This document shows positions 2,992 through 47,544 of a stretch of DNA of 64,000 nt, in pieces. Each line of letters opens with the position of its first letter. Position 1 is the first letter of the stretch. The stretch is from Daucus carota subsp. sativus (lineage: Eukaryota; Streptophyta; Magnoliopsida; Apiales; Apiaceae): contig NC_030381.2 in NCBI RefSeq assembly GCF_001625215.2, positions 37,074,689 through 37,138,688 of the forward strand, read 5' to 3'. The translations under genes were made by a program, and so were the position numbers. Below the pieces are notes generated by a model. The model was given only the letters and a program-made list of their open reading frames with translations. It had not been told where the DNA came from and did no database searches.

Positions 2992-3376
2992 AGTATATTA
3001 ATGGTTATTATCATTGATATATTTCTCTAGATTCTGTTAAGCATGTTTAATTAACCGATTGATTAATAATTAATATTTTTATATCGTATCCTTGAGGTAC
3101 CGATCTCATCACTATTGACATTGACATTATTTCATATTTATTATTCGAAGTGTATTTCTATCACATAAAAAAAAAAATTAAAAACAATTATTTTGACAAT
3201 AATATGATTTCAGTTTATTTTTAATTTTATTTCTAATTAAAATTATTACAGTTTTGGTATTCGAACTAATTTGGATTTGATATCGAAATATCTAAATGTT
3301 GGGACTATAACTATTTAACCACATTTGCAAAACCGAATCCATCATAGATTAGAAGCCCTTAATTTGAAATCGAGAA

Positions 3377-4930
3377 ATGGGGACGAGAGCCGACAAGGGC
3401 GAAAGGTTGACAGAAGTGGACTTGTTAATTGAGGTGCTTTCGAGGCTTCGTGTGAAGCCCTTGCTTCGTTGCAAATCCGTGTCTAAATCATGGTACGCTC
3501 TCATTTCAAGCCCTAATTTTATCAAATCTCATCTTCAACGTGCAATCACAAGCTGTGCTGTAGATGATGAGGATGAAAATAATCTCATAGTTCACTACCA
3601 TAGACATTGGGATCGTCTTGAATATAAAGAAGCAGACGGCTCATTCAAACTCTTTAACCTCGGTATTGGTTATACTACGACAAATCTTAAATTTCCTTAC
3701 CCTCAAGGTGAGTATCCCATCGATCCTCCCTCTCTTCTCGTTGGTTTTGTTTGCGGGATTGCTTGTGTTTGTGTTGATGACTCTGATGATTTCAATAAAT
3801 TCTTTGTGCCTACTGCTAATCTTCCAAGTAATATATACCTTTGGAATCCCGCGATTAAACAATCTAAACTTATTCGTCCGCATACTATACATGCTGATGA
3901 CAAGACAGAAGTTGCTTTAGGCTTTGGATTTGATCCCATTGATTTTGATTTTAAGGTTGTTAGAGTTGCTAGAGATATTTCGAGTGCCATTTTGCCCGAG
4001 GTCTATTCTACAAACAAGGATGCTTGGAGAAATATTGATTCTAACTTGACTGATGTACCCTACAGCAGAAGTTTACAGATATGCCTCCACGGATTTTTGC
4101 TTACGACTGGAAATAATGGTATGATAGCTTTTGATCTAAACAAGGAGGTGTTTGTTTGTGATATTAAGCTTCCTGTCAACATTAGTGGTGGTGGTCATCG
4201 TTTCTTATATGATGCTCGTGTCGTTGTCTTCAAGGATTCTGTTGCTTTTATTACCTCTACGTTTTCTAAACCGCATAGGATGAACTTGTGGACATTAGAT
4301 GACGAGGCATGCCTTCGTGGTGGTGGAGTCCAGGCATCATGGACTCTAAAGCTTAATATTGGTCTTGATGAAGACTTTTACTATTTCCAGGGCCTTTATA
4401 ACAGCATTGACTTATTATTCCTTTATATGGGAAAGTGCTTCCTGTACAATTTAGACATGAATTTGAGCAGATATAAATATCCTAGAGAGTTTAGTTATTT
4501 TGAAGAAGACGCTTTCAAGTATTCGGAGAGCCTGCTTTCATTTGCAGGATCTATACCAGTCAACTGGCCTGCTGATAAAGAAGATAATTATGAAAGTGAA
4601 GTGGATCTGGAAGATTGTAATTATGATAGCGAAGTGGATCTGGAAGATTGTAATTATGATAGCGAAGTGGATCTGGAAGCTGGTAATTATGAAAGAGAAG
4701 TGGATCTGGAAGCTGGTAATTGTGAAAGCGAAGTGTATCTGGAAGTTGATACCGAGGAAAGCAATGTTGCCTCTGAAGATGATAAGGAAAGCAGTGAAGA
4801 TTCCGAATATGATCCTGAGGAGAGCATTACTGATTCCGAAGATGATAATGTGGAGAGCTACGAAGACGATATTGAGGAAAGCTCTGAAGCTGATAATGGG
4901 GAATGCAGTGATGATTCTGCTAGTGAGTAA
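3377..4930 (+). CDS. F-box protein with F-box-associated domain and acidic repeat tail
   Basis: An intronless 517-residue protein. Residues ~11-56 are an F-box (LTEVDLLIEVLSRLRVKPLLRCKSVSKSWYALI, in pieces), the helix trio that binds SKP1 in SCF ubiquitin ligases. Residues ~100-390 resemble the F-box-associated interaction region of large plant F-box families, with a 'LWNPAIKQSKLI' motif and 'LWTLDDEA' as in kelch-like/FBA proteins; this part would choose the substrate, which is unknown. From ~residue 404 there is a very acidic tail of ~110 residues rich in E, D and S, including five 11-residue units of NYDSEVDLEDC type. The start is the first ATG, just before the F-box. Nucleus or cytosol is expected. 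The tail is unusual; most relatives end soon after the FBA domain. Its nearest relative in the window is the fragment at 922-1500. Confidence 0.88.
   Translation: MGTRADKGERLTEVDLLIEVLSRLRVKPLLRCKSVSKSWYALISSPNFIKSHLQRAITSCAVDDEDENNLIVHYHRHWDRLEYKEADGSFKLFNLGIGYTTTNLKFPYPQGEYPIDPPSLLVGFVCGIACVCVDDSDDFNKFFVPTANLPSNIYLWNPAIKQSKLIRPHTIHADDKTEVALGFGFDPIDFDFKVVRVARDISSAILPEVYSTNKDAWRNIDSNLTDVPYSRSLQICLHGFLLTTGNNGMIAFDLNKEVFVCDIKLPVNISGGGHRFLYDARVVVFKDSVAFITSTFSKPHRMNLWTLDDEACLRGGGVQASWTLKLNIGLDEDFYYFQGLYNSIDLLFLYMGKCFLYNLDMNLSRYKYPREFSYFEEDAFKYSESLLSFAGSIPVNWPADKEDNYESEVDLEDCNYDSEVDLEDCNYDSEVDLEAGNYEREVDLEAGNCESEVYLEVDTEESNVASEDDKESSEDSEYDPEESITDSEDDNVESYEDDIEESSEADNGECSDDSASE
4586..4750 (+). repeat. 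five 33-bp in-frame tandem repeats in the F-box tail
   Basis: Five consecutive 33-bp units (starting 4586, 4619, 4652, 4685, 4718) each encode an 11-residue block of the form N-Y/C-[DE]-[SR]-E-V-[DY]-L-E-x-x. Units 2 and 3 are nearly identical in DNA and the last is most divergent. The unit length is a multiple of three, so copy number can change without breaking the frame. Further irregular acidic repeats follow to the stop codon. Confidence 0.9.
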
Positions 4931-18342: not shown

Positions 18343-21300
18343 ATGCAAAGCCTTGGTGGAAAGAGGAAGACAGTTTGGGAACGTGAGCCTGCATTAAACG
18401 ATATAAGTGAGTGCATTATTATTGTTGACTTATATATTTTATTGTCGTCGTACTTTTAACTTGATATGTGTAAAAGGAAATAGTCGTCAAAATTTAGCTC
18501 CGCTTCTTCGTACACATTACATACTTCTTCACATTGAAGGAGAATCAGAATGCCAACCAAACAATCTTTTTAGCTTGAGGAATTACAACAAGAAAATTTC
18601 CTCAAACTTTACTCTACTCAAGTAAAAGATAATTCTATACTAGCTTTTGTATGTATTGGGAACCAATTTTCGGCACAGATGTGGTACAAAAATGAGATTT
18701 AATTTCCGAGGAAAAGGTATTGATATAGATGACTTTATCAGAATGCCAACCAAACAATCTTTTTAGCTTGAGGAATTACAACAAGAAAATTTCCTCAAAC
18801 TTTACTCTACTCAAGTAAAAGATAATTCTATACTAGCTTTTGTATGTGTTGGGAACCAATTTTCGGCACAGATGTGGTACGAAAATGAGATTTAATTTCC
18901 AGGGAAAAGGTATTGATACAGATCCTGCCTGTGGTGGTAATATAAATTCACCAGAAATGAATAAATTTTGTGGTGATGTTTGAACCTATAATTAGCCTGT
19001 ATATATAGTCATGTAGTCCAACTACTATGCCGCGAGTCCTTTCCAATGACATTTGATGATAGGATTGATATTTTTAACATTACAGACACTGAAATAAATT
19101 GGGCACTGTTTATTTTGATGAATACAAATTAACTCTTATGTATCAGAGCATTAAACCTTCATATATATGCTTCTAAATTCAATGGGAGTAACTTGTAGTG
19201 GGAGGAAAATACTTATACTTACTAGTAAAACCATGACTTGGTTCGGTAATTTAAGAACTTCTTTAGTATTTTTGGTCTGTCATAATTATCAATAGCAATC
19301 ATTTGTGTATGATTCTTGTTGATTATAATATTATCATTTCTATCTTGTTTCCATCACTTAATTGATGTGCCATTTCACATGTTGGATATATATACAGGTC
19401 CACGTGATATGGAATATTTCCATAAGTTAGGTAGCAAGCGACCAAAATACAAGGAAAAAGATTGTAATTTGCATCTGGATGTTTATACCAAGATAGCTTT
19501 GTTAAAGGCTTCTCCTTCGGTTGTTGGCCTTGTATCTTATTCTGGTACTCAATTTATCCCATTCTATTAACTATATGATTTTATCTTTCGTATATATAAT
19601 GTATTGTCAACCTATTATAAAAGAGACTGTTTTACACAATTGTTTATGGTTTAGGTGATGAGGAGATCATTCAGGGTTCAGGGACCATCATTGAGAGTAA
19701 TGATAGTTGGACCATTATTCTGACTTCTGCAAATTTACTTAGACGCCCCTCACGTGGAGAGTTTGTAGAAAACAGTTTGGTTGATAATCTCAAGGTAAAT
19801 AGTCTTTTTATTACTCAGAATTCAATGATATTAGTGTTTAGGACATCAATTTACTTTAATGCTAGTGGTACCATGTTCCTCATGTTGTTAGTTATTTCAA
19901 ATTTTCTTTATTTGTAGATCACTGTGCACACATGTCATGGTAATTCCTACCATGGAGAAGTTGTTGCTCATGATTTTCACTACAACCTAGCTGCCATAAG
20001 ATTCAAGTCGGAGATGCCACTTGCAGCTGCAATATTGGCACATGTGGATGACTCCATTAGTCTTGCTTCTGTTCCATCTTCATTTCAGCTACGTGCACAT
20101 TCGAAGTCATCAAATCTTGTCCCTGGTGATAAAGTGATTGCTCTAGGGCGTTACTTTGCCGGTGACTATGACATAATGGCTGCTTATGGAGAATTTTGGT
20201 AAAATGCTAACTTATGAAATTGTGCTCTATGTCCAGTTACTGGACATGCTCGCTATAAATTGTTACGTCATTGTGGTTGGCAAGAGTGACTAAACTATTT
20301 CAGTATCATCTAACAAAAGTTTGATAGAAATGTAAATCATATACACTTTAGTACTGTGCTAGTCATACTGTAGTTCAACACATTCTTTCCATAAAGCTCA
20401 TATGAATTAGTACATTTGCGTCAGGCCTCAAGACCTTGCAGAGCGGAAATCGGTTACTCTCTTGGTTTATGCAAAATGCAAATATTAGCTGCATGTGCAC
20501 CTTCTGTTGTTTCAGCCATACATGTACCATCTCTGCAGAAGATGTCTGTGTGGGCTAAGTAGAGCTTATACCGAAACCTGTTGCAATGCACTGGTGATAT
20601 ATGGTGTACTTCTATTATGAACCCAATTGGTCCGTAGAGGAATCTTAGTCATTTGCTAAAGTGCCTAGTAATATACATAGTTGAACTTTGTTAGAACACC
20701 AATTAAGATTATTGGCAGAATACGTAGAGCAAATATGCTCCTTTTACTCCAGTTTTATATATATTCTGGTTCCTTCTTATTTTGATTATATATATATATA
20801 TAGATTAGTGTTGTTGCAACTTTGGAGGCTAATGTTTGTCTACTCTACCATACTGTTTTAGTTGTATTGCATCAGATTATGTTTGTTTGTCCATGATAAT
20901 AAGATATTTGATCTGTGTGTTATCAGAATAAATACTAATTTTAATGCACTAGTAAATTAAGAGTAAGCACAAGGCCGATTACATATTCTTGCTCTCTTTG
21001 CCTTTTGTCAGCCTTGAACGTCCGGAGCCCGAATATGACTGTAGAGAGCTTTTCATGGCCAATTGCATAATCACAAGGGTACGTTCTTCTTTGCCTCTTG
21101 ACAGTAATAACATTTTTTTTCTTATAAATCTATATTGTTGATATATATTAGTTACTAGGATGTCCTCATCCTACCATAGTTAGCTTTAGCAAATATTAAG
21201 AAAAAATATAAGAACTTAGCAAAAATCATGGAACCTTATGAAGAAAGTAAGATTGTGTTGTTGGTTGGTTAATGCTCATCTTTATGAGCGCACTGTACAA

Positions 21301-24300
21301 AGCGAGTCATAATGATAGCCAATGCTAGCTAATCAAAGTTTATAATAGGTTCCTATTAAGGATGCTGATAACGATCATAGCTTGACTATCAAATAGTGGA
21401 ACACGTAACAAATGATATGGTTCTTAGACATGTTACAATCTTTCATCATCTAGATCTGTTTATGTTAGTACTTGCATATTATGTTATTATTTGCTTAGCT
21501 AGGCACCTCATCAGGATTGTTTTTATGTTAGTACTTGCATCTTATGTTATTATTTGCATATTGGCCTGGCACTTTCAGTATTGTTTTACTGCCTTCTTTT
21601 GATTGTGTAGTCTGGTGATGGCGGTCCACTTGTGAATTATAATGGGGAGGTGATTGGAGTCTCCTTTTATGATTATGGATTGATACCATGGATTCCGATT
21701 AACATAGTCGGCAAATGGTGGGCGCACTTCAAGAGATCAGGGTAAGTAAAAGGACTAGCTCAATATTATAATATGCTATTGATCTTACATTTATTAATAA
21801 TATTTGAAATGTGGTTTGTTGATTGTATGATGCACTTTCCTGGTTTGTTGATTGTATGGTGCAGCTTTATTCGTTCACCTAGTTACACCGATGGTTAGAT
21901 GCCTAACATTTGAAATTATGGGGTTTCATGCAAATGGGGTTGGTTTTTATTAAAAACCATAATCAGTTTTCTTTTTGATTCTAGAATGCGAATATTCATT
22001 AAAATTATTTGTACTTAAATGTCAATTGTTCCCTGTTGCCTTTTTTAATGCCCATGTCTCTATTACTGTGTGTTTGTAAACATGTAATTTTTTTTGCCTA
22101 CACACACACACACACACACGCACACACACACACATATACTTATAAAGCAATTGTTCAGTTACTTTTTCAAGTTCGTACGTACTATGACCTATGACTATGA
22201 GTGTGTTAAATACTTGAACAAATAAAACGTATTGTAATTCATGTCACTTGTTGGCTGTTGCTAAATATATAGTGTTAGTGTTTATGTGCGGCATGACTTT
22301 TATGTGAACTTAATCATTCAAGTTGTAACAAATCGTTACTTGCAATAGGGAATACTGCCGCCCTGCTCTCGGATTTGAAGCAACAAATCTCTATGCAGCT
22401 GATTCATGCATTTTGGAGAGGGTGATGCTGAAGTTTCCTAGCATTTGCAAAGGTGTTCTAATAGAAAAGGTAACTTACATCGAGTAGTTAAAATTACAGT
22501 TAATTTTATTGATTTTATTACTACAAATAAGTGACAATATAATGTCTCACTGATCAAAGTGTGTTTCTTAAATGCACACTATTGTGCAGGTAGAACCAGG
22601 TTCATCTGCTGATTTGTCCGGGCTCCATGCAGAAGACATTATTGTTCAATGCGGTGGGAGAACAGTTCAAAGTTTCCTTGAGGTATGAGTATGTTTTTTA
22701 GAGTATATTTTTTTTAATGATTTTATGGTTAATGCCTTCATGAACGGAATGTGGGTATAATGCGAATTGTGAGATGGAACTTACTATATGTATGATCGAA
22801 GTCTTTTTTTTGCTTTAATTTAATGTCTCTTCGTGTTATGAAAAGGTCTATAGCTAATATAATGCTATGTTGGGTCTAACCATATCCTCTGGTCTATAGA
22901 TTTTTATTTTTATTTTGGTATTTTTTGGTGGTGGTGGTGGTGGTTTGGGGGGGGGGGGGGGGGGGGGGGGGGATGGGGTTTTATCAGCTACCTGATTGTT
23001 GGTGTCCACATATACAAGACTGATCTGTAACGGCGGTGTATCTATAGTTGTTCTACCCTATACACTGATAAGATTTGTAGATAGAACATTCCTAGGCACT
23101 TTATATTATGCCTTCTCCAGATATAACAGATATAACAGGGAATAGATTGGGTGTTTGTAGAGCCCACATTGTACATTCTTTCATCAGCTTACTAGAGTAG
23201 ATGACGGGGCGTCTTTTACGTTACAAACTTAAATGTTATTTAACATCAGTTAACAAATTTGATCTTTAGCAGCTACCTGATTGTTTGTGTCCACATATAC
23301 AAGGGTGATCTTAACTGTGGCGTTTGTCTATGTTACCCGGACTCGGCTGAAAGTGTCCAAACCGGATACGTGTCCGAGTGTCGGACTCGGCAATATTTTG
23401 AAAAAATTTCATGTTTTTGGCCTAAAATAAGTGTCGGAGTGTCCATACCCATGTCCGAGTGTCGAGTGTCGAGTGTCCGACACGGGTACTCGAGGCAAAA
23501 TGAAGAGTCCGGGTAACGTAGGCGTTTGTCAGAAAAGCTTGTGCTCCCTGCTGATTTACAGCTTTGTTACTGCAAAAAAGTTTCATTAAGCTGAAAAAGT
23601 GATATGAGTTATCTATCAAAAGGTCACTTATATCCAGCAAAAGGTTGAAATCACCTTATAAAAATGGATTCATAAAAAAATTAGATTTAAAGTATGATAG
23701 AGAGTTGTTACTGATTCTGTTAAGATGTTATGTATAGTGGTATTGGGGGTTTGTTTTCTCATACATGTTTCAATGTTAATCTATCTGTAGTGTTGCCTTC
23801 TGTTGTGTCATCGACTACAACAATATGATTCGTAATCTACTGAAAGGTTTGGACAAAAGCTGCAATTGGTCTAACTTAATTTTAATATAAAACTGCTATA
23901 TATGTTAACCTGTTGCCTTGAAACTAGTTATAGCTCATTCTTTTTAGTTTTTATATATCTGATATATTGAATATTAGCACAAATACTCTTTTGATATCCT
24001 AGCAGCTCCATAATGCATCTATAGCTGTTTTACCTTATACATTGATAAGATTTGTACATAGAACATTCCTAGGCACTCTATATTATGCCTTCTCCAGATA
24101 GACACAGGGGCTGGATTGGGTGTTTGTAGAGCGCACATTGTACATTCTTTCATCACCTTACTAGAGCAGATAATAGGGCGTCTATTTGCATTACAAACTT
24201 AAATTTATTTAACATTATTTTACTTATTTGATCTTTTATCTGTACGGCATAGTGATATTGCTGCAATGATAAAGTCGATAGCTCAGAAATATGTTTGTAT

Positions 24301-24939
24301 GGTTGTTCTTGGAATATTCTCAAATCCTTCTAGTGGAAAACAATTTTAAATTTATTTTATATGTGCTATGTATCTGCCTATCAGTTTCAGTTGTTGAGTG
24401 TAATCAGCATACTAATGTCATGCTTCTGAAATGTTTTTGAAGCTACATCATATTACTGTACTGGCGACTAATTTTTGTGATAAACAACTTGTGACCATAA
24501 TTTATCAATGTTTATATATTTGTTATATTGCATGGGTAATGCATTTTAGTAGTTACCTTGGATGTGGTGTGTTTATAGTTCTTTCTTGTGGTTCTTCTCT
24601 GCGTAACTGAGTTTATGAGATAATTAGTTATGGTCTGCATTCTCTCACTCATCTGAAGAAATTACTCCCATATACTTGACGTGGTCTATATACTGTTTCT
24701 TTCTTCTCTGTTATTAGTTTTTTGAGGCAATATGGGACAAAGTTGGAAATCTTGTAGATTTAGTCGTGGTACGTCAAGGGAGTGATACTCTCTTGAATCT
24801 TAATATGCATGTTGAAGCGACATCAGATCGCTTGAATAGGTCAGTTTTTTTCATGCATTGACCAACATCCACTAGTAGCACTCCGATTTTTTATTGAATA
24901 TCTTGATGTTTCAGGTGGCCTAGTCGGACCTACAAATGA
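18343..24939 (+). CDS. Deg/HtrA-like trypsin-fold + PDZ protein, catalytically dead
   Basis: Ten exons fit one frame: 18343-18406, 19398-19544, 19655-19794, 19918-20198, 21012-21078, 21611-21741, 22349-22469, 22590-22682, 24718-24839 and 24915-24939, giving 396 residues; every junction has GT-AG and matching phase. Residues ~60-275 have the double-barrel fold signature of DegP-like proteases and ~278-388 a PDZ domain (VEPGSSADLSGLHAEDIIVQ). At the catalytic positions, His is Asn97 (ILTSAN), Asp is Asn140 (FHYNLA) and Ser is Asp236 (SGDGGPL). The fold around them (GG-PL, GEVIGVS) is well kept, so it may bind peptides or regulate active Deg hexamers/trimers rather than cut; that is inference. 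No transit peptide is obvious, so nucleus or cytosol is likely. Intron 8 is 2.0 kb and repeat-rich. A paralogue lies at 46205-47544. Confidence 0.85.
18545..18922. repeat. 193-bp tandem duplication in intron 1
   Basis: The segment starting 'tcagaatgccaacc' at 18545 is repeated from 18738 with only a few differences (for example tgtattggg versus tgtgttggg, and tgatatagat versus tgatacagat). The high identity implies a recent event. It is inside intron 1 and has no visible coding role. Confidence 0.9.
21460..21590. repeat. short tandem duplication in intron 5
   Basis: 'tttatgttagtacttgcat-ttatgttattatttgc' occurs at ~21460 and again at ~21523, just before the acceptor of the exon that carries the dead Ser position. 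It is non-coding. Confidence 0.75.
22099..22133. repeat. (CA)n microsatellite in intron 6
   Basis: A run of CA dinucleotides with one G interruption lies in the intron between the exons at 21611 and 22349. It is a simple-sequence repeat, likely polymorphic. Confidence 0.9.
22946..22972. repeat. long poly-G tract in intron 8
   Basis: After a (GGT)n stretch there is an uninterrupted run of about 25 G residues. Such a tract could form G-quadruplex structure and is difficult to sequence, so its length is uncertain. Confidence 0.85.
22984..24240. repeat. duplicated segment within intron 8
   Basis: A ~250-bp sequence at ~23040-23265 (ctatacactgataagatttgtagatagaacattcctaggcact and following, in pieces) recurs at ~24030-24240 with the same order and about 90% similarity by eye. 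A shorter word, 'agctacctgattgtt-gtgtccacatatacaag', appears at ~22987 and ~23270. The intron has grown by internal duplication plus the insertion at 23329. Confidence 0.8.
23329..23520. mobile_element. 192-bp MITE with 10-bp target duplication (Mutator-like)
   Basis: The left end TATGTTACCCGGACTC and the right end reversed TACGTTACCCGGACTC are near-perfect inverted repeats. The direct repeat GGCGTTTGTC flanks it at 23319-23328 and 23521-23530. The interior is GC-richer than the surroundings, with repeated 'gagtgtcg'. A 9-11 bp target duplication points to the Mutator superfamily. It sits in intron 8 of the Deg-like gene. Confidence 0.88.
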
Positions 24940-26300
24940 TAAGAAACTGATTAGCTTGGCACCTTGATTAACAGGTAAGACTTGAGAGAACTTTTTCATC
25001 AATATCATTTCTTGTGACCATGAATACAATTGTTATTCACTGTTGTGGTATTATTGTATCAAATGCCCGCACTTCTGTGAACATGAATCCTGTTGTATTT
25101 CAGTACTCTTGTCGTACTAGAATTTCATGCTATACGTGATATTTAAAATAGTTCATTAGTGTGAGACAGATTGGGGACATGCATTATTAAATTTATATAT
25201 CTGTTGTGGACACCTCTTCTTCTCAATCGTCACTGGTAATTATTATTTCTAGACAGTCCTGTAAAAATATATTTTTTGGTGATTCTTTTAATTCAAGACT
25301 CCTGTTTTTAGAGTAAGATATAGGGTTTTGTATCTGAGAAGACTTCTTAATTTGATGTAGCGCTTAAATCTATCCAATCCACTTAGAGAATCACAACTTA
25401 CAAATATCGTCTAAAGATAACCTACAGTATTACAAGTTATACATGTATAAAATGCGGCAAAAACTATACTGACTAAACTCAAGTGAACCATGCCCCCAAA
25501 CAATCGGAACTGGACATATGTGTGAACTGGTCATAATCATATGTAATGCCCTAGAATACGGAGACTCGCCATAAATATCAAACTAATGAACTCGTATCAT
25601 GTTCTCTGACTGGTCACGTGGTTTAGCAATTTCTATAGCTTTGTTTTAAATAATCAATGAAGGTTTTGAGTTCTATTATTTTAATGATATCTTGGGCATG
25701 GAATTTGTTTTTTTTATGCCACTTGTTTTTGGTCTCAATCACCTATTGTCTTGTTTTCTCCAACCCCGCAGTCACACGCTTTCTAGCTGGGATTTGGTTT
25801 TGATTGCTTATTTAAAATAATTTTATGCATTGCAGGGTGAACTGTTAACAATTTTACAACATCCTTTTTGCAAAGTGTGTTCTCCGTTTTTAGGATGAGA
25901 TCCTGACAGGGAATTTAGCTTGGGGCAACCAACTAACATGGACAAGTTTTCAGATGACGAGAAAAAGTAATGCAGTTTTTGACCCGTCTTTGGGGATAAA
26001 CATGGTTATCTGTAACACAAATGCCTTGTTGCTATGATTATTTATAACACAATATATGTTATTTTCCTACGACAATCACACATCTTTTGAATTTCTGTCA
26101 GTATTATTGTTTGCTACTTGGTGTTCTATGGTTCCAACTTGGGCCATTATTTGTCATTAAAAAAAATCGTTTTACTCAGTAAAGTTTGTATTATGTAAAC
26201 ACATGTTTGGTTTATCTTGCTTTTAAAAAATTAATCAGTAATTTATGGAGGCATGTACTTTTCCTTAGAGAGCAAGTACTTATATCTAAATATACATATT
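24940..26300. other. 3' flank of Deg-like gene, no further gene
   Basis: Probable 3' UTR and intergenic sequence. Segments at ~25745-25890 and ~25995-26130 resemble 11550-11710 and 12480-12600. No open frame matches a known family. Confidence 0.5.
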
Positions 26301-26308
26301 ATTAAAAA

Positions 26309-26861
26309 GGGTTAATTATCTAGTTGGTCCCTGAAGTGGGCTTAATGTATCAAATTGGTCACTGAACTCAAAACGGTATTAAGATAGCCACTGAAGTGGC
26401 CATAAATATCAAACAAATAACTTGAAATATAAGTTCAAGCAGTAAAATATTATTTATAAAGTTTTACACATTATTTTTGAATGTTACCAAAACCAAGTAA
26501 AAGGTTACGACTTCTAATATTTATGATAATATATTTAGATTTTATCAAGTTTATTTATTATTTATTTTTAATTAAAACAAAGAAAATAACTATATAATAA
26601 AATATAAATAATAAATAAACTTGATAAAATATAAATATATTATTTTAAATACTAGAAGTCATAACCTTTTAGTTGGTTGTGCTAACATTTAAAAATAATG
26701 TGTAAAACTTTATAAATAATATTTTTACTACTTGAACTCATATTTCAAGGTACTTGTTTGATATTTACGGTGACTTTTGGGACCATCTTGATACCGTTTT
26801 GAGTTTAGTGACCTACTTGATACATTAAGTCCACTTCAGTGACCAACTTGATAATTAACCC
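26309..26861. mobile_element. foldback element, GGGTTAATTATC ends, 10-bp target duplication
   Basis: The two halves are long inverted repeats: 'gggttaattatctagttggtccctgaagtgg' at the left is mirrored at the right ('ccacttcagtgacc…gataattaaccc'), and matching continues for over 200 bp to an AT-rich centre around 26580. The flanks carry TTATTAAAAA at 26299-26308 and 26862-26871. Long inverted repeats with a 9-10 bp duplication fit a Mutator-like foldback element. Related copies lie at 44207-44688 and 50307-50476. Confidence 0.88.
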
Positions 26862-27187
26862 TTATTAAAAAGTATAAAAATTTGTCTTCTTTTTGATATC
26901 AAAATGAGAATTTTTCTAACAAAATAAGTCCTTATTCCTATAAATAATTTCATAAGAACACATTTATAATCAACAAGATGAAAGTAAATATTAACACCAA
27001 ATCAATAAGTTACAATCAGTTAGGATAATTTAGTACAGTAAAAGTTTATACTGTAATAATCTAATATGCTATATTTTGGAATAGATATGGTTAATGCATT
27101 TTATAAAACTAAATTGTAAAAGTATATGTAAAGTGAAGAGAGATATACTTAATCCATTTTATAAAACTAAATTGTAAAATTTAAAAG

Positions 27188-30838: not shown

Positions 30839-31700
30839 GATGCAGTCTATGATTCCGAGCGTATTCAACTTACTCAGTTGTGTGAAAAACTAAAACCTAT
30901 TATTTGGGTCATTGAAATAACTGGCAAAACTAAGGGGCAGATGACGAAAACAGGTGCTACAGGATTTTCCGTGCACAATGATGGTTTGGTAATGACCTGT
31001 GCACACATATTCAAGGGAGTGAACTTAACTGAAATTAATGTTCGTAGACTTGATGAAGAAAATTTTAAAACTGCTAAACTGAAGGATATGCGATTAAAGT
31101 GGGATTTAGCACTCTTGAAGTTTGATGAGGTGATTGATTGTAGCTGATGGGTCGATTTGGGAAGGTCAACCCCTGTTGCATATTGGGAATCCGTTCAACT
31201 TTTTAGGATCTTATTTGATTGGGCGTGCATGTTTTCCATGCGTGGCAGATGTGAGCCCTCCGAGAGGTAATGAAACTTGTGGCAGATTTGACTCAACAGC
31301 CATGATAAAGACACCAAGATACCGAGTGATGGGACACGTGTGGAATAGCGAATATTTTTCAAGCCATCAGCATTCCAGTTTTCCCTTTGAAAAATCTCTT
31401 ACCCCTTCGGTTCCCATTATCCAATGCAATGGAATCAATGCCAGACCAGGTTGTTCTGGAGGTCCTGTATTTAATATGGAGGGAAAGATTGTAGGGATGC
31501 TGATTGCAGGAGGGAATGACTTTGACATAGTCACTCATGTGTCAGCTCTGAGGATGTATTTGGCAAACCGTTGCCAATCCGAGGTTTGTATATCCACCAG
31601 TGTGATTTGTTATGCTATTAGAATTATAATTAAACAAATCCTTAAATTACTTAATTTTACTATTGTACAGGACACTTCAAAGAAGCAAAGGACTTGTTGA
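30839..31700 (+). pseudogene. Deg-like serine protease with intact triad but frameshift
   Basis: An exon opens after an acceptor at 30838 and encodes a trypsin-like domain: MTCAHIF holds the catalytic His, KWDLALLKF the Asp and ARPGCSGGPVF the Ser, all in the expected order and spacing. The first part runs 30839-31151 and stops; the second, in another frame, runs from ~31134 to 31583. The junction contains a tandem ATTG-ATTG at ~31131-31140; counting one copy makes the two halves continuous, so a 4-bp duplication explains the break. A short last exon, 31671-31700, follows an 87-bp GT-AG intron. There is no PDZ domain, and the 5' exons with the start codon were not found. Without the frameshift this would be the only active protease of the three Deg-like copies. 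A sequencing error cannot be excluded. Confidence 0.72.
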
Positions 31701-38957: not shown

Positions 38958-39870
38958 ATGGCAGACGACGAAAACGCCGTTACAATCTACACCACCACCG
39001 CAATAACCGACGCAAACAAGAACAGTTCGTTATCAATGAAGGTGGGTCTTGCCCAGATGCTGAGGGGCGGCGTGATTATCGAGGTTAATAATGCTGAGCA
39101 AGCCAAGATCGCTGAATCAGTGTGTAGTTGTTGTTGAGAGTGTTGAAAGTGGCATTTCACGGATGCCTGACCCGGGATTATTGAAGGAAGTTAAAAGGGC
39201 TATTTCGATTCCTGTAATGGCGAAAGCCCGGGTTGGGCATTTCGTCGAGGGTCAGATTCTGGAGGCGGTGGAGGCTGATTATATTGATGAGAGTGAAGTG
39301 ATTGGTATTGCTGATGAGGACCATTTTATTAATAAGCATAATTTCCGTGTCCCGTTTGTTTGTGGATGTAAGGATTTGGGAGAGGCGTTGAGGCGGGTTA
39401 GAGAAGGCGCGGCAATGATTAGGACACAAGGGGATGGGATGAAGTTAGGTGATGTTGTTGAGACGGTTGGGAGTGTCAGGAGAGTGATGGGGGATATTAG
39501 GATTTTGTCAAATATGGATGATGATGAGGTTTTCACGTTTTCAAAGAGGATTGGTGCTCCTTATGATATAGTGATGCAGACGAAACAAATGGGGAGGCTT
39601 CCGGTTGTGCATTTTGCGTGTGGGGGGATTGTGATGCCGGCTGATGCAGCGTTGATGATGCAATTGGGGTGTGATGGTGTGTTTGTTGGACTGGAGGTTT
39701 TTGGATGTGGGGATCCGTATAAGAAGGTGAGGGCGATTGTGCAGGCTGTTAGGAATCATAGTGATCCGCGTGTGCTGGCTGAGGTTAGTTCAGGGTTTAA
39801 TGAAGGAACGGCTAGCTTTAATGTTAATGAGAATAGTGTCGAACAGTTTGATGCTTCAAGGACCTATTAA
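38958..39870 (+). pseudogene. PDX1.2-like (vitamin B6 synthase pseudoenzyme subunit), frameshifted
   Basis: Intronless. The ATG at 38958 begins MADDENAVTIYTTTAITDAN and reaches SMKVGLAQMLRGGVIIEV and AEQAKIAES, then runs into TGA at 39135-39137. The rest of the protein continues in another frame from ~39118 (SGISRMPDPGLLKEVKRAIS …) to the TAA at 39868. Compared with Arabidopsis PDX1.2 the three residues between AES and C are missing and one base is left, i.e. about 8 bases lost. It is PDX1.2-like rather than PDX1.1/1.3: the loop that should read RTKGE has IRTQGDG, so the second catalytic Lys is Gln. The first Lys (VMAKARVGHF) is kept. PDX1.2 assembles with active PDX1 and supports pyridoxal-phosphate synthesis under stress. 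With the frameshift only ~60 residues would be made; an assembly error is possible. Confidence 0.85.
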
Positions 39871-44111: not shown

Positions 44112-44183
44112 GTGGCTGTAGTTTAGTGGTAAGAATTCCACGTTGTGGCCGTGGAGACCTGGGCTCGAATCCCAGCAGCCACA
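44112..44183 (+). tRNA. tRNA-His (GTG)
   Basis: A 72-nt cloverleaf: acceptor stem GTGGCTG paired with CAGCCAC, D-arm with 'agtttagtggtaa', anticodon stem CCACG/CGTGG with loop TTGTGGC (anticodon GTG at 44145-44147), and T-arm CTGGG-CTCGAAT-CCCAG with the invariant TTC-like loop written here as CTCGAAT. Discriminator base A183. The box sequences for RNA polymerase III are inside. A T-run (tatttttc) at ~44193 can terminate transcription. No intron. Confidence 0.96.
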
Positions 44184-44206: not shown

Positions 44207-44688
44207 ATCGGTATCAAGACGGTGACTGAAGTCATCGTAAATATCAAATAAGTACCTCGAAATATGAGTTCAAGCATTAAAAATATGATTAATAGAGTTT
44301 TACACATTATTTTTAATGTTCTCATAACCAACTAAAAAATTATGACTTCTAGTATCTATGATAATATATTTAGATTTTATCGAGTTTATTTATTATTTAT
44401 TTTTATTATCAAGTTTTGTTTTCATTATACACAAATAATAAATAAATTTGATAAAATCTAAATATATTATCATAAATACTAGAAGTCATAATATTTTCGT
44501 TGGTTGTGGTGACATTCAAGAATAATGTGTAAAACTCTATAAATCATATTTTTAATGCTTGAACTCATATTTCGAGGTACTTGTTTGATATTTATAGTGA
44601 CTTCAGTGACCATCTTGATGCCGTTTTCAGTTCAGTGACTAACTTGATACATTAAACCCACTTCAGTGACCAACTAGATAATTAACCC
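44207..44688. mobile_element. truncated copy of the GGGTTAATTATC foldback element
   Basis: The sequence is close to 26309-26861 from 'tatcaagacggtgactgaagt' through the AT-rich centre to the right terminus …gataattaaccc. About 65 bp of the left terminus are missing. The break lies ~24 bp after tRNA-His. Without its left end it cannot be mobilised. Confidence 0.85.
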
Positions 44689-44869
44689 TTTATTGATTAA
44701 CAGATGGAGTTGTATGGGTGTACAAATATTATCAAAATAATTGATTTGTCATGCATGAACAGTAACCGATTGCACCAATTAATCAATCATCAATATACTT
44801 ATATAAAGGAGAAGCGAGGGGCGTGTAGTTGGCGCCTCTCAGCTTTGTTCTATTTTTCTAATATAGTAG

Positions 44870-46150: not shown

Positions 46151-46204
46151 ATGGAACGAGTCAAACTAAAGCATTAACACTACAATATTTAAGTATACTT
46201 GCAT

Positions 46205-47544
46205 ATCCATATGTTTTGAAGTATTCCCACCATTTGCGAGCTATATTTATAGGAATAAATTGAGTTGAATCGATATCATAGTAACTGACACCGATTACTT
46301 CTCCGTGGCAATTGATTATGGGAGCTCCATCACCAACCTACAGTCATATACAAAGTCATCAGTAAATTTATCAACAAAAATATCATAATCTCATTATCAC
46401 CATTTACATTAATCAGGAGAATTGAGAGGGAAAGAGGGATAGAGGTACCCTCGTGATTACGCAACTAGCTGCGAAAAGTTCTTTGCAATCATATTCGGTG
46501 CGCTTAAGCCTAAAGTAATCAAACAAACCAAGAACAAGTAATCAACATGAGGTCGATGTAGTTTTACCACTAATATAAATTATTATATAGACAATAGAAA
46601 AATTAAATATGGCATTGTCATATCACAAAAATTATAATTAATATACAAAATAAAAACCAGATAAGTAAGGATGTGCTGTAGACATTTATGAAACTGAAAG
46701 TTGCTTACACATAGTAATCGGGGGCATTCATAAGAACAAAAGGCGGATCAAAATACTGGCCTACAACAATAACCCGATACCCGGGAGTCAGCTTAAATGC
46801 CTCTGAATTTGGTTTGAGTAATGGTTGTCTTGCAAAAATATCCATCGAGTCATCTACATGCGCTAATTTTGCAGGTGCATAACAAATAGTTCATGTGCGA
46901 TACTTAGGATTGCAAGATTGAAGTGGAAGTCATATGCACACACTTATTCGGCAAATGATCTACCATCATATGAGTGCATATAAACCTGCACAAAAAATTT
47001 CAAATATTATCATATTGTATCTATAAAGATAACCATATAATCTCATTTCATTCTAATATTCAACTTAAAGCTTGGAGAGTAAGTGGTGTCTGAGAACCAA
47101 ATTGACAAGATTTAAATTCACGAATAAAATTTGAATACATACACAAGACAATCAATAAACATATGTGGTATCAATAGTAATACCCTGAGTTTCCTAGCTA
47201 GCACGTTTTCCGTATCCTCAACATCATTAAGAGGACACGGAGGACGCCTAATCAAGTTGGCTGACGTTAAGACAATGGCCTTATTATGGTGCCACAACCC
47301 CGGATGACATCCTGTAATTCTACATAACAGATTAGAAATTCAGTAAAAAAAACAATAACACAAATGTAGACAAAGGTAAAAGGAAAATCAATACCACAAA
47401 AACATTCAAGTGCAACAACAGAACAGCCCGTCTTAATAGCAGCTTGTTTTGTGGTTTCATCCGGGAACTTATTATCATCATTTCCCTTTCTGAATTTTGG
47501 TAGCTTCGAAGAGTATTCATACAGGTACCTCATCTCGCTTGCAA
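46205..47544 (-). pseudogene. broken third Deg-like paralogue (N/N/D catalytic positions)
   Basis: On the minus strand, blocks 47544-47395, 47311-47184, 46985-46709, 46509-46449 and 46337-~46205 match exons 2-6 of the 18343-24939 gene. For example MRYLYEYSSKLPKFRKG, VLTSANLIRRP, FHFNLAIL, EYDCKELFAASCVITR, and GDGAPIINCHGEVIGVSYYD with PINIARKWWEYFK. Splice sites are mostly kept. It is broken: block 2 has a short deletion and shifts frame before VLTSAN, block 3 has an in-frame TAA after GRSFAE and further shifts, and no PDZ exons follow. It carries the same Asn (for His), Asn (for Asp) and Asp (for Ser) as the plus-strand gene. Confidence 0.85.

Follow-up and report, generated by a model that had tools for sequence, protein, structure and literature searches.

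The question raised by this locus is what a gene of the Deg/HtrA protease fold is for once all three of its catalytic residues have been replaced, and whether such a gene is being kept or is being lost. The gene lies at positions 18343-24939 on the plus strand of a 64,000-nucleotide stretch of the carrot genome (Daucus carota subsp. sativus, NC_030381.2, positions 37,074,689 to 37,138,688, here C1:37074689-37138688), which we call the window. Our analysis indicates that it probably encodes a functional, non-catalytic Deg/HtrA-fold protein (a pseudoprotease), with plant Deg14 as its probable source. The original prediction, made from the letters of the window, had called the gene intact, maintained and non-catalytic rather than decaying, and this has held up: the reading frame carries no stops or frameshifts, and the ratio of nonsynonymous to synonymous substitution rates (dN/dS) is estimated at 0.16, a value of 1 being rejected only when the gene and its sister copy are given equal times.

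Gene model and catalytic positions

Ten exons join into a coding sequence of 1191 nt for 396 amino acids without internal stops or frameshifts, and all nine introns are GT-AG. The splicing in phase into a trypsin-like plus PDZ protein that had been described from the sequence was reproduced, the same exons being recovered identically by our home-made, protein-guided spliced aligner, which is free in placing GT-AG introns, when given the protein itself as guide. Exon 1 (18343..18406; MQSLGGKRKTVWEREPALNDI) has an in-frame stop four codons before its ATG, and exon 2 (19398..19544) is followed at its 3' end by an intron (71.1) common to paralogues. The trypsin-like domain begins in exon 3 (19655..19794), which contains the catalytic His position; the Asp position lies in exon 4 (19918..20198) and, after exon 5 (21012..21078), the Ser position lies in exon 6 (21611..21741), whose flanking introns match in place and phase those of L004, a Deg14-like gene discussed below. 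The PDZ domain begins in exon 7 (22349..22469) and continues through exons 8 (22590..22682) and 9 (24718..24839), and exon 10 (24915..24939) ends with the stop codon. In Pfam, Trypsin_2 matches residues 78-250 over its whole profile (1-144 of 144; 47.6 bits against a cut-off of 27.6) and PDZ_2 matches residues 283-376 (29.0 bits, cut-off 27), while a phmmer search of PDB chains returns DegP/HTRA chains with a best E value of 1.6e-13. The protein thus has the homology expected of the Deg/HtrA fold, a trypsin-like domain followed by a PDZ domain. A chance joining of unrelated open frames is ruled out by intron positions and exon lengths common to paralogues.

Aligned with L004 and two bacterial HtrAs, all of which have His, Asp and Ser in the triad columns, the window protein has Asn97 (TSAN; codon AAT, 19732..19734), Asn140 (HYNLA; codon AAC, 19984..19986) and Asp236 (SGDGGP; codon GAT, 21617..21619), all on the plus strand, exactly the three replacements first reported for it. 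Deg/HtrA enzymes are defined by a His-Asp-Ser triad that this protein does not have, and we infer that it would be unable to cleave peptides by the serine-protease mechanism.

Selection since the split from a wrecked sister copy

The nearest relative of the window gene lies on contig 7 (C7:40.82 Mb), with exon and intron stretches alignable at 71-87% identity. Its 226 aligned codons include 6 stops, its exons 2, 3, 5 and 9 are disrupted by frameshifting indels (4, 7, 1 and 7 nt, respectively), and no counterpart of exons 4 and 8 could be aligned. Because it is a wrecked pseudogene whose introns can still be aligned, it is usable as a roughly neutral yardstick. The two sisters differ by nonsynonymous changes at 67 codons, which we assigned to one side when other family members agreed with one sister, ties and agreement with neither being left unpolarised. 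Forty changes fell on the pseudogene side and 6 on the window-gene side, with 21 unpolarised; among the 46 polarisable replacements this asymmetry has a binomial p of 3e-7.

Codon-model fits point the same way. With a home-made MG94-type model, fitted for the sister pair on the 220 of 396 codons that are pseudogene-aligned and non-stop, a six-sequence fit with free times put dN/dS at 0.159 in the window gene, at 0.694 in the pseudogene and at 0.28 elsewhere, and a value of 1 for both sisters was rejected (twice the log-likelihood difference, 2dlnL, 17.3). When the same neutral time was imposed on both sister lineages, as is valid, local rate differences aside, for copies that arose in a single split, the estimates were 0.156 (95% interval 0.06-0.28) for the window gene and 0.71 (0.49-1.08) for the pseudogene in 100 bootstraps; the window gene had the lower value in 100/100, and its dN/dS of 1 was rejected (2dlnL 31.0, p = 3e-8). 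This equal-time result was stable to the choice of sequences: 0.198 without the C1:18.7 row (p 7e-7), 0.153 with that row split (p 2e-8) and 0.197 with C1:28.33 and C7:8.00 as the only outgroups (p 2e-6), the three alternative outgroup sets giving a 2dlnL of 22.7-31.5 with 1 rejected in each. Stop codons tell a similar story, since 4.7 stops would be expected on a neutral branch as long as the neutral fit makes it (0.1; probability of none, P0, 0.009) and 8.8 on a branch of length 0.185 (P0 1.6e-4), and the window gene has none. The separate dN/dS of the two domains, proposed as a check with the original prediction, was estimated jointly on four carrot family members, where synonymous change is near saturation: 0.28 overall, 0.29 for the trypsin part and 0.23 for the PDZ part, each fitting far better than 1. 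Given equal times for the sisters, the window gene appears to have been under purifying selection since their split, and decay as the principal explanation is ruled out by the polarised replacements together with the equal-time dN/dS.

Two features of the introns may be recorded here. Intron 1 contains a 187-nt tandem duplication (18544-18923) with copies 97% alike; both align to one single stretch of the contig 7 pseudogene, so the duplication is probably younger than the split. Intron 8 contains a run of 26 G (22947-22972).

The carrot family, its probable origin and its neighbours

We searched the carrot genome (441,086,747 bases, 11 contigs) with the window protein and with the C1:28.33 paralogue, and read the loci with the spliced aligner. 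The close family has at least 12 loci, a lower bound from this search: the window gene and a minus-strand copy in the window; C1:18.77-18.79, 28.07, 28.086, 28.11 and 28.33; C3:14.46; C6:27.93; and C7:0.47, 8.00 and 40.82 Mb. Each triad position could be read in 10 of the 12. At the His position six loci have N, two T, one S and one either V or L, depending on the alignment; none has H, although the broken C6:27.93 copy has one two residues off this position. The Asp position is N in 9, the window gene included, and S in 1; we counted C7:40.82 as unreadable there, the aligner having given Asn in an exon 4 that lacks a DNA-level alignment. The Ser position carries D or N in three loci each and I or V in two each, and never S. 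Triad loss is thus common to every readable close-family locus of this genome. Whether N/N/D is fixed, a point raised with the original prediction, receives a divided answer among the carrot paralogues: the Asp column holds Asn almost throughout (9/10), but residues at the other two columns differ between loci. Two more distant genes with K/N/E at the triad (L020 and L027; C5:42.38 and C4:25.09 Mb) likewise have Asn in the Asp column, although their tree placement is weak (support 76). These are long single-frame trypsin-like genes, likely a second set of pseudoproteases.

Six of the 12 loci are broken: C7:40.82, C3:14.46, C7:0.47, C6:27.93, C1:28.086 and the minus-strand window copy (46181..47535), a decayed N/N/D paralogue (TSANLI, HFNLA, VGDGAP) detected over residues 25-280 only, with 2 frameshifts and 1 stop. 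Five are free of disabling changes as far as they were read, namely the window gene, C7:8.00, C1:28.33 and, in part, C1:28.07 and C1:28.11, the last PDZ exons of these two not being found within the flanks examined. We trimmed weak matches resembling exons from the outer ends of C1:18.77, C1:28.07, C1:28.11 and C3:14.46, the C1:28.07 end including a frameshift at residue 361, and likewise removed weak upstream matches in C1:18.78 inside a repeated stretch. The state of the remaining locus, C1:18.77-18.79, is doubtful because its frameshifts in exons 6-7 depend on the intron penalty of the aligner, being present under one and gone under another at the cost of a 4-nt exon. In this copy some 14 kb separate exons 2-4 from exons 5-10, and the gap is bordered on each side by an identical stretch of 600 bases or more; the roughly 12 kb between the identical stretches in intron 4 (C1:18772320-18784284, between L036/L045 and L033) is probably a young long terminal repeat element. 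The C7:8.00 gene (L009; C7:8000244-8004257) retains at most one of its introns, has an intact frame and reads V or L / N / N at the triad; it looks like an old retrocopy whose reading frame was kept.

Intron positions connect the window gene with a paralogue and with a gene that has an intact triad. After residue 52, C1:28.33 has all eight of the window gene's intron positions and phases plus one further intron (169.1), and five exons have equal lengths in the two genes (140, 131, 121, 93 and 122 nt). The L004 gene (C6:20355860-20359132), which keeps H/D/S and is 33% identical to the window protein across the aligned part, exactly matches introns 234.0 and 277.2 of the window gene and has 210.2 against its 211.2; its introns 98.0 and 111.1 are not common to the window gene, which has 71.1 and 118.0. 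The best PDB chains for L004 are HTRA3, HTRA1 and HTRA2 (158-170 bits), and since Deg14 is described as closely homologous to HTRA2 (PMC12344103), these matches are in keeping with a Deg14-like label for L004. The introns common to L004 and the window gene, with these HTRA matches, suggest that the window gene descends from plant Deg14. A small protein tree with few outgroups (supports 45-100) placed L004 with the bacterial HtrAs on a long branch and is too thin to serve as proof of this descent. Scans that reach close relatives only returned none in viral contigs and, in prokaryotic contigs, the two bacterial HtrAs with H/D/S at 24-25% identity.

Other genes of the neighbourhood deserve mention. 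About 6 kb downstream of the window gene is a short trypsin-like gene (30839-31565, plus strand; Trypsin_2 51.8 bits, no PDZ match) in which the His, Asp and Ser motifs are present (TCAHIF, KWDLALL, GCSGGP); it reads in two adjoining frames, which may reflect a small intron or a frameshift. A similar arrangement is found at C1:28054686-28330629 (L001, L003, L005, L019, L021, L022, L034, L049), where pseudo-Deg genes are interspersed with three short trypsin-like genes, of which one has the complete set of motifs and two have changes. The window also contains a PDX1-family open frame (39076-39867, plus strand) with PDX1.2 as best PDB match and the Gln of MIR(T/I)QGD as in PDX1.2, a noncatalytic PDX1 relative, and an F-box protein gene (3368-4927) whose tail carries an acidic 11-residue repeat encoded by a 33-nt tandem repeat (4545-4775, plus strand). 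Two long fold-back copies with inverted arms (26299-26871 and 44209-44691), 88-89% alike where matched, likely represent a mobile element, and a tRNA-His gene (44112-44183) lies beside one of them.

Weighing the explanations and what the gene may do

Several observations weigh against a functional pseudoprotease. Half of the close family is broken, which marks the family as prone to decay. On the window branch alone, with free rates and times, a dN/dS of 1 is not rejected at the two-sided 5% level (2dlnL 3.59, p 0.058), and in a four-taxon fit the test is weaker still (2dlnL about 0.8; log-likelihoods, lnL, -2433.34 vs -2433.75); the free single-branch test is weak because synonymous changes are poorly polarised, which leaves rates and times confounded. 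Between the sisters, divergence of the coding sequence (0.185, 0.139 and 0.250 at the three codon positions) is not below that of alignable intron (0.168). In our view this reflects change on the pseudogene branch, together with a bias of local alignment towards the more similar parts of introns, and by itself the comparison gives no strong signature of constraint. Finally, an AlphaFold model of the L009 paralogue, built on an alignment of 3 rows (L009 and the two K/N/E paralogues), was too poor for use, with a mean predicted local distance difference test score (pLDDT) of 38.7 and 55-80 per block of ten in the PDZ part.

The broken relatives, one of them 21 kb away in the window, and the unconstrained single-branch test would suit a gene that lost its function lately and has yet to take its disabling mutations. 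We regard such a recently doomed pseudogene as improbable, for the equal-time dN/dS of 0.16 applies to the whole branch since the contig 7 split, and the 40 to 6 polarisation and the absence of stops in 396 codons leave relaxation to fit only a recent, minor part of it. A hidden enzyme, with an active site rebuilt around Asp236 or other residues, is far less credible still; the near-fixed Asn at the Asp position hints at some role, but the His position (N/T/S/V or L) and the Ser position (D/N/I/V) vary among relatives, as expected where no chemistry is conserved. Given a functional pseudoprotease, the kept PDZ domain suggests peptide binding, and a protein that stands alone as a PDZ or unfolded-peptide binder, serving as a chaperone, a decoy or a scaffold while its trypsin-like domain forms a shell that is inert or holds peptides, is a serious possibility that we hold tentatively. 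By point estimate the constraint on the PDZ part is no weaker than that on the trypsin part (0.23 vs 0.29), and at the start of the PDZ domain, in exon 7, the window protein has RPALGF, a stretch we take to lie at the peptide-binding loop, where L004 has RPWIGL. Constraint on both domains, however, makes it less than obvious that the trypsin-like domain is inert. The protein might instead be a heteromeric subunit in trimers of an active Deg, Deg14-like or other, tuning it as MamO activates MamE, which we think rather unlikely. This idea gains from the common fold, the probable Deg14 ancestry, the trimers formed by HtrA proteins as described in PMC12344103 and the MamO precedent (PMC4794232); no interface could be modelled, and the N-terminus, judged by eye, is unlike an organelle transit peptide, whereas Arabidopsis Deg14 (At5g27660) is described as mitochondrial (PMC4130198).

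Our preferred reading remains a functional pseudoprotease, which could plausibly act in peptide binding or regulation. Its retained PDZ domain would most likely bind C-terminal or unfolded peptides, and it may also, or instead, join or regulate oligomers of active Deg-type proteases, since HtrA proteins form trimers. Because the N-terminus lacks the look of a transit peptide, the site of action would probably be the cytosol or nucleus and not mitochondria. A broader scenario, offered as speculation that we hardly expect to hold in full, would have a clade derived from plant Deg14 in which Asp first changed to Asn and the His and Ser positions then drifted, its members being kept as cytosolic or nuclear peptide-binding regulators and expanding in carrot into clusters (C1:28.05-28.33 Mb and the window) that also contain genes for short trypsin-like proteases, the two kinds possibly being inactive and active partners.

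Precedents exist for proteases of this fold that no longer cut. MamO of magnetotactic bacteria is described as a trypsin-like protein with a degenerate active site, kept for noncatalytic functions, which activates MamE-dependent proteolysis and binds metal (PMC4794232), although it is bacterial and its inactivation is of separate origin. The second protease domain of AtDeg7 is reported as an inactive Deg domain kept for trimerisation, in that case within one chain that also holds an active domain and four PDZ domains (PMC3473262). The Deg14-like carrot gene L004 differs in keeping the triad. Closest by description are the plant proteins with an inactive protease domain and one PDZ domain (PDia-PDZ), at about 300-400 amino acids, to which the window protein is likened by description alone. 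Among these, poplar PtDeg17.1-17.3 are listed at 298-364 amino acids, one of them a fragment, in table 2 of PMC3473262; two of their three gene models are numbered consecutively (POPTR_0018s04140 and 04150) and, as far as PMC1780054 and PMC3473262 describe them, they have no close Arabidopsis counterpart, Deg17 being presented as a Populus-only group perhaps lost in Arabidopsis (PMC1780054). Rice OsDeg-like 1, 2 and 4, likened by description as well, are inactive Deg-fold proteins according to table 3 of PMC3473262, the first two with PDZ, but they are longer (470-593 amino acids), and OsDeg-like 4, which lacks a PDZ, carries two inactive domains.

Plant Deg-like proteins that are inactive have therefore been published already. 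The inactive Deg-fold proteins listed in PMC3473262 include Arabidopsis Deg6 and Deg16, PtDeg17.1-17.3 and members from rice, moss and Chlamydomonas; the paper suggests non-proteolytic roles for them and omits them from its tree. In the open-access literature searched we found neither a study of the window gene nor a functional study of a plant PDia-PDZ protein. The additions made here are the carrot member, its selection history and the near-fixed Asn. They turn an overlooked plant class of inactive Deg relatives into a testable case, in which an apparently selected copy can be set beside its wrecked sister, and they provide a concrete gene with which to ask what job an HtrA fold may do after it has lost the ability to cut.

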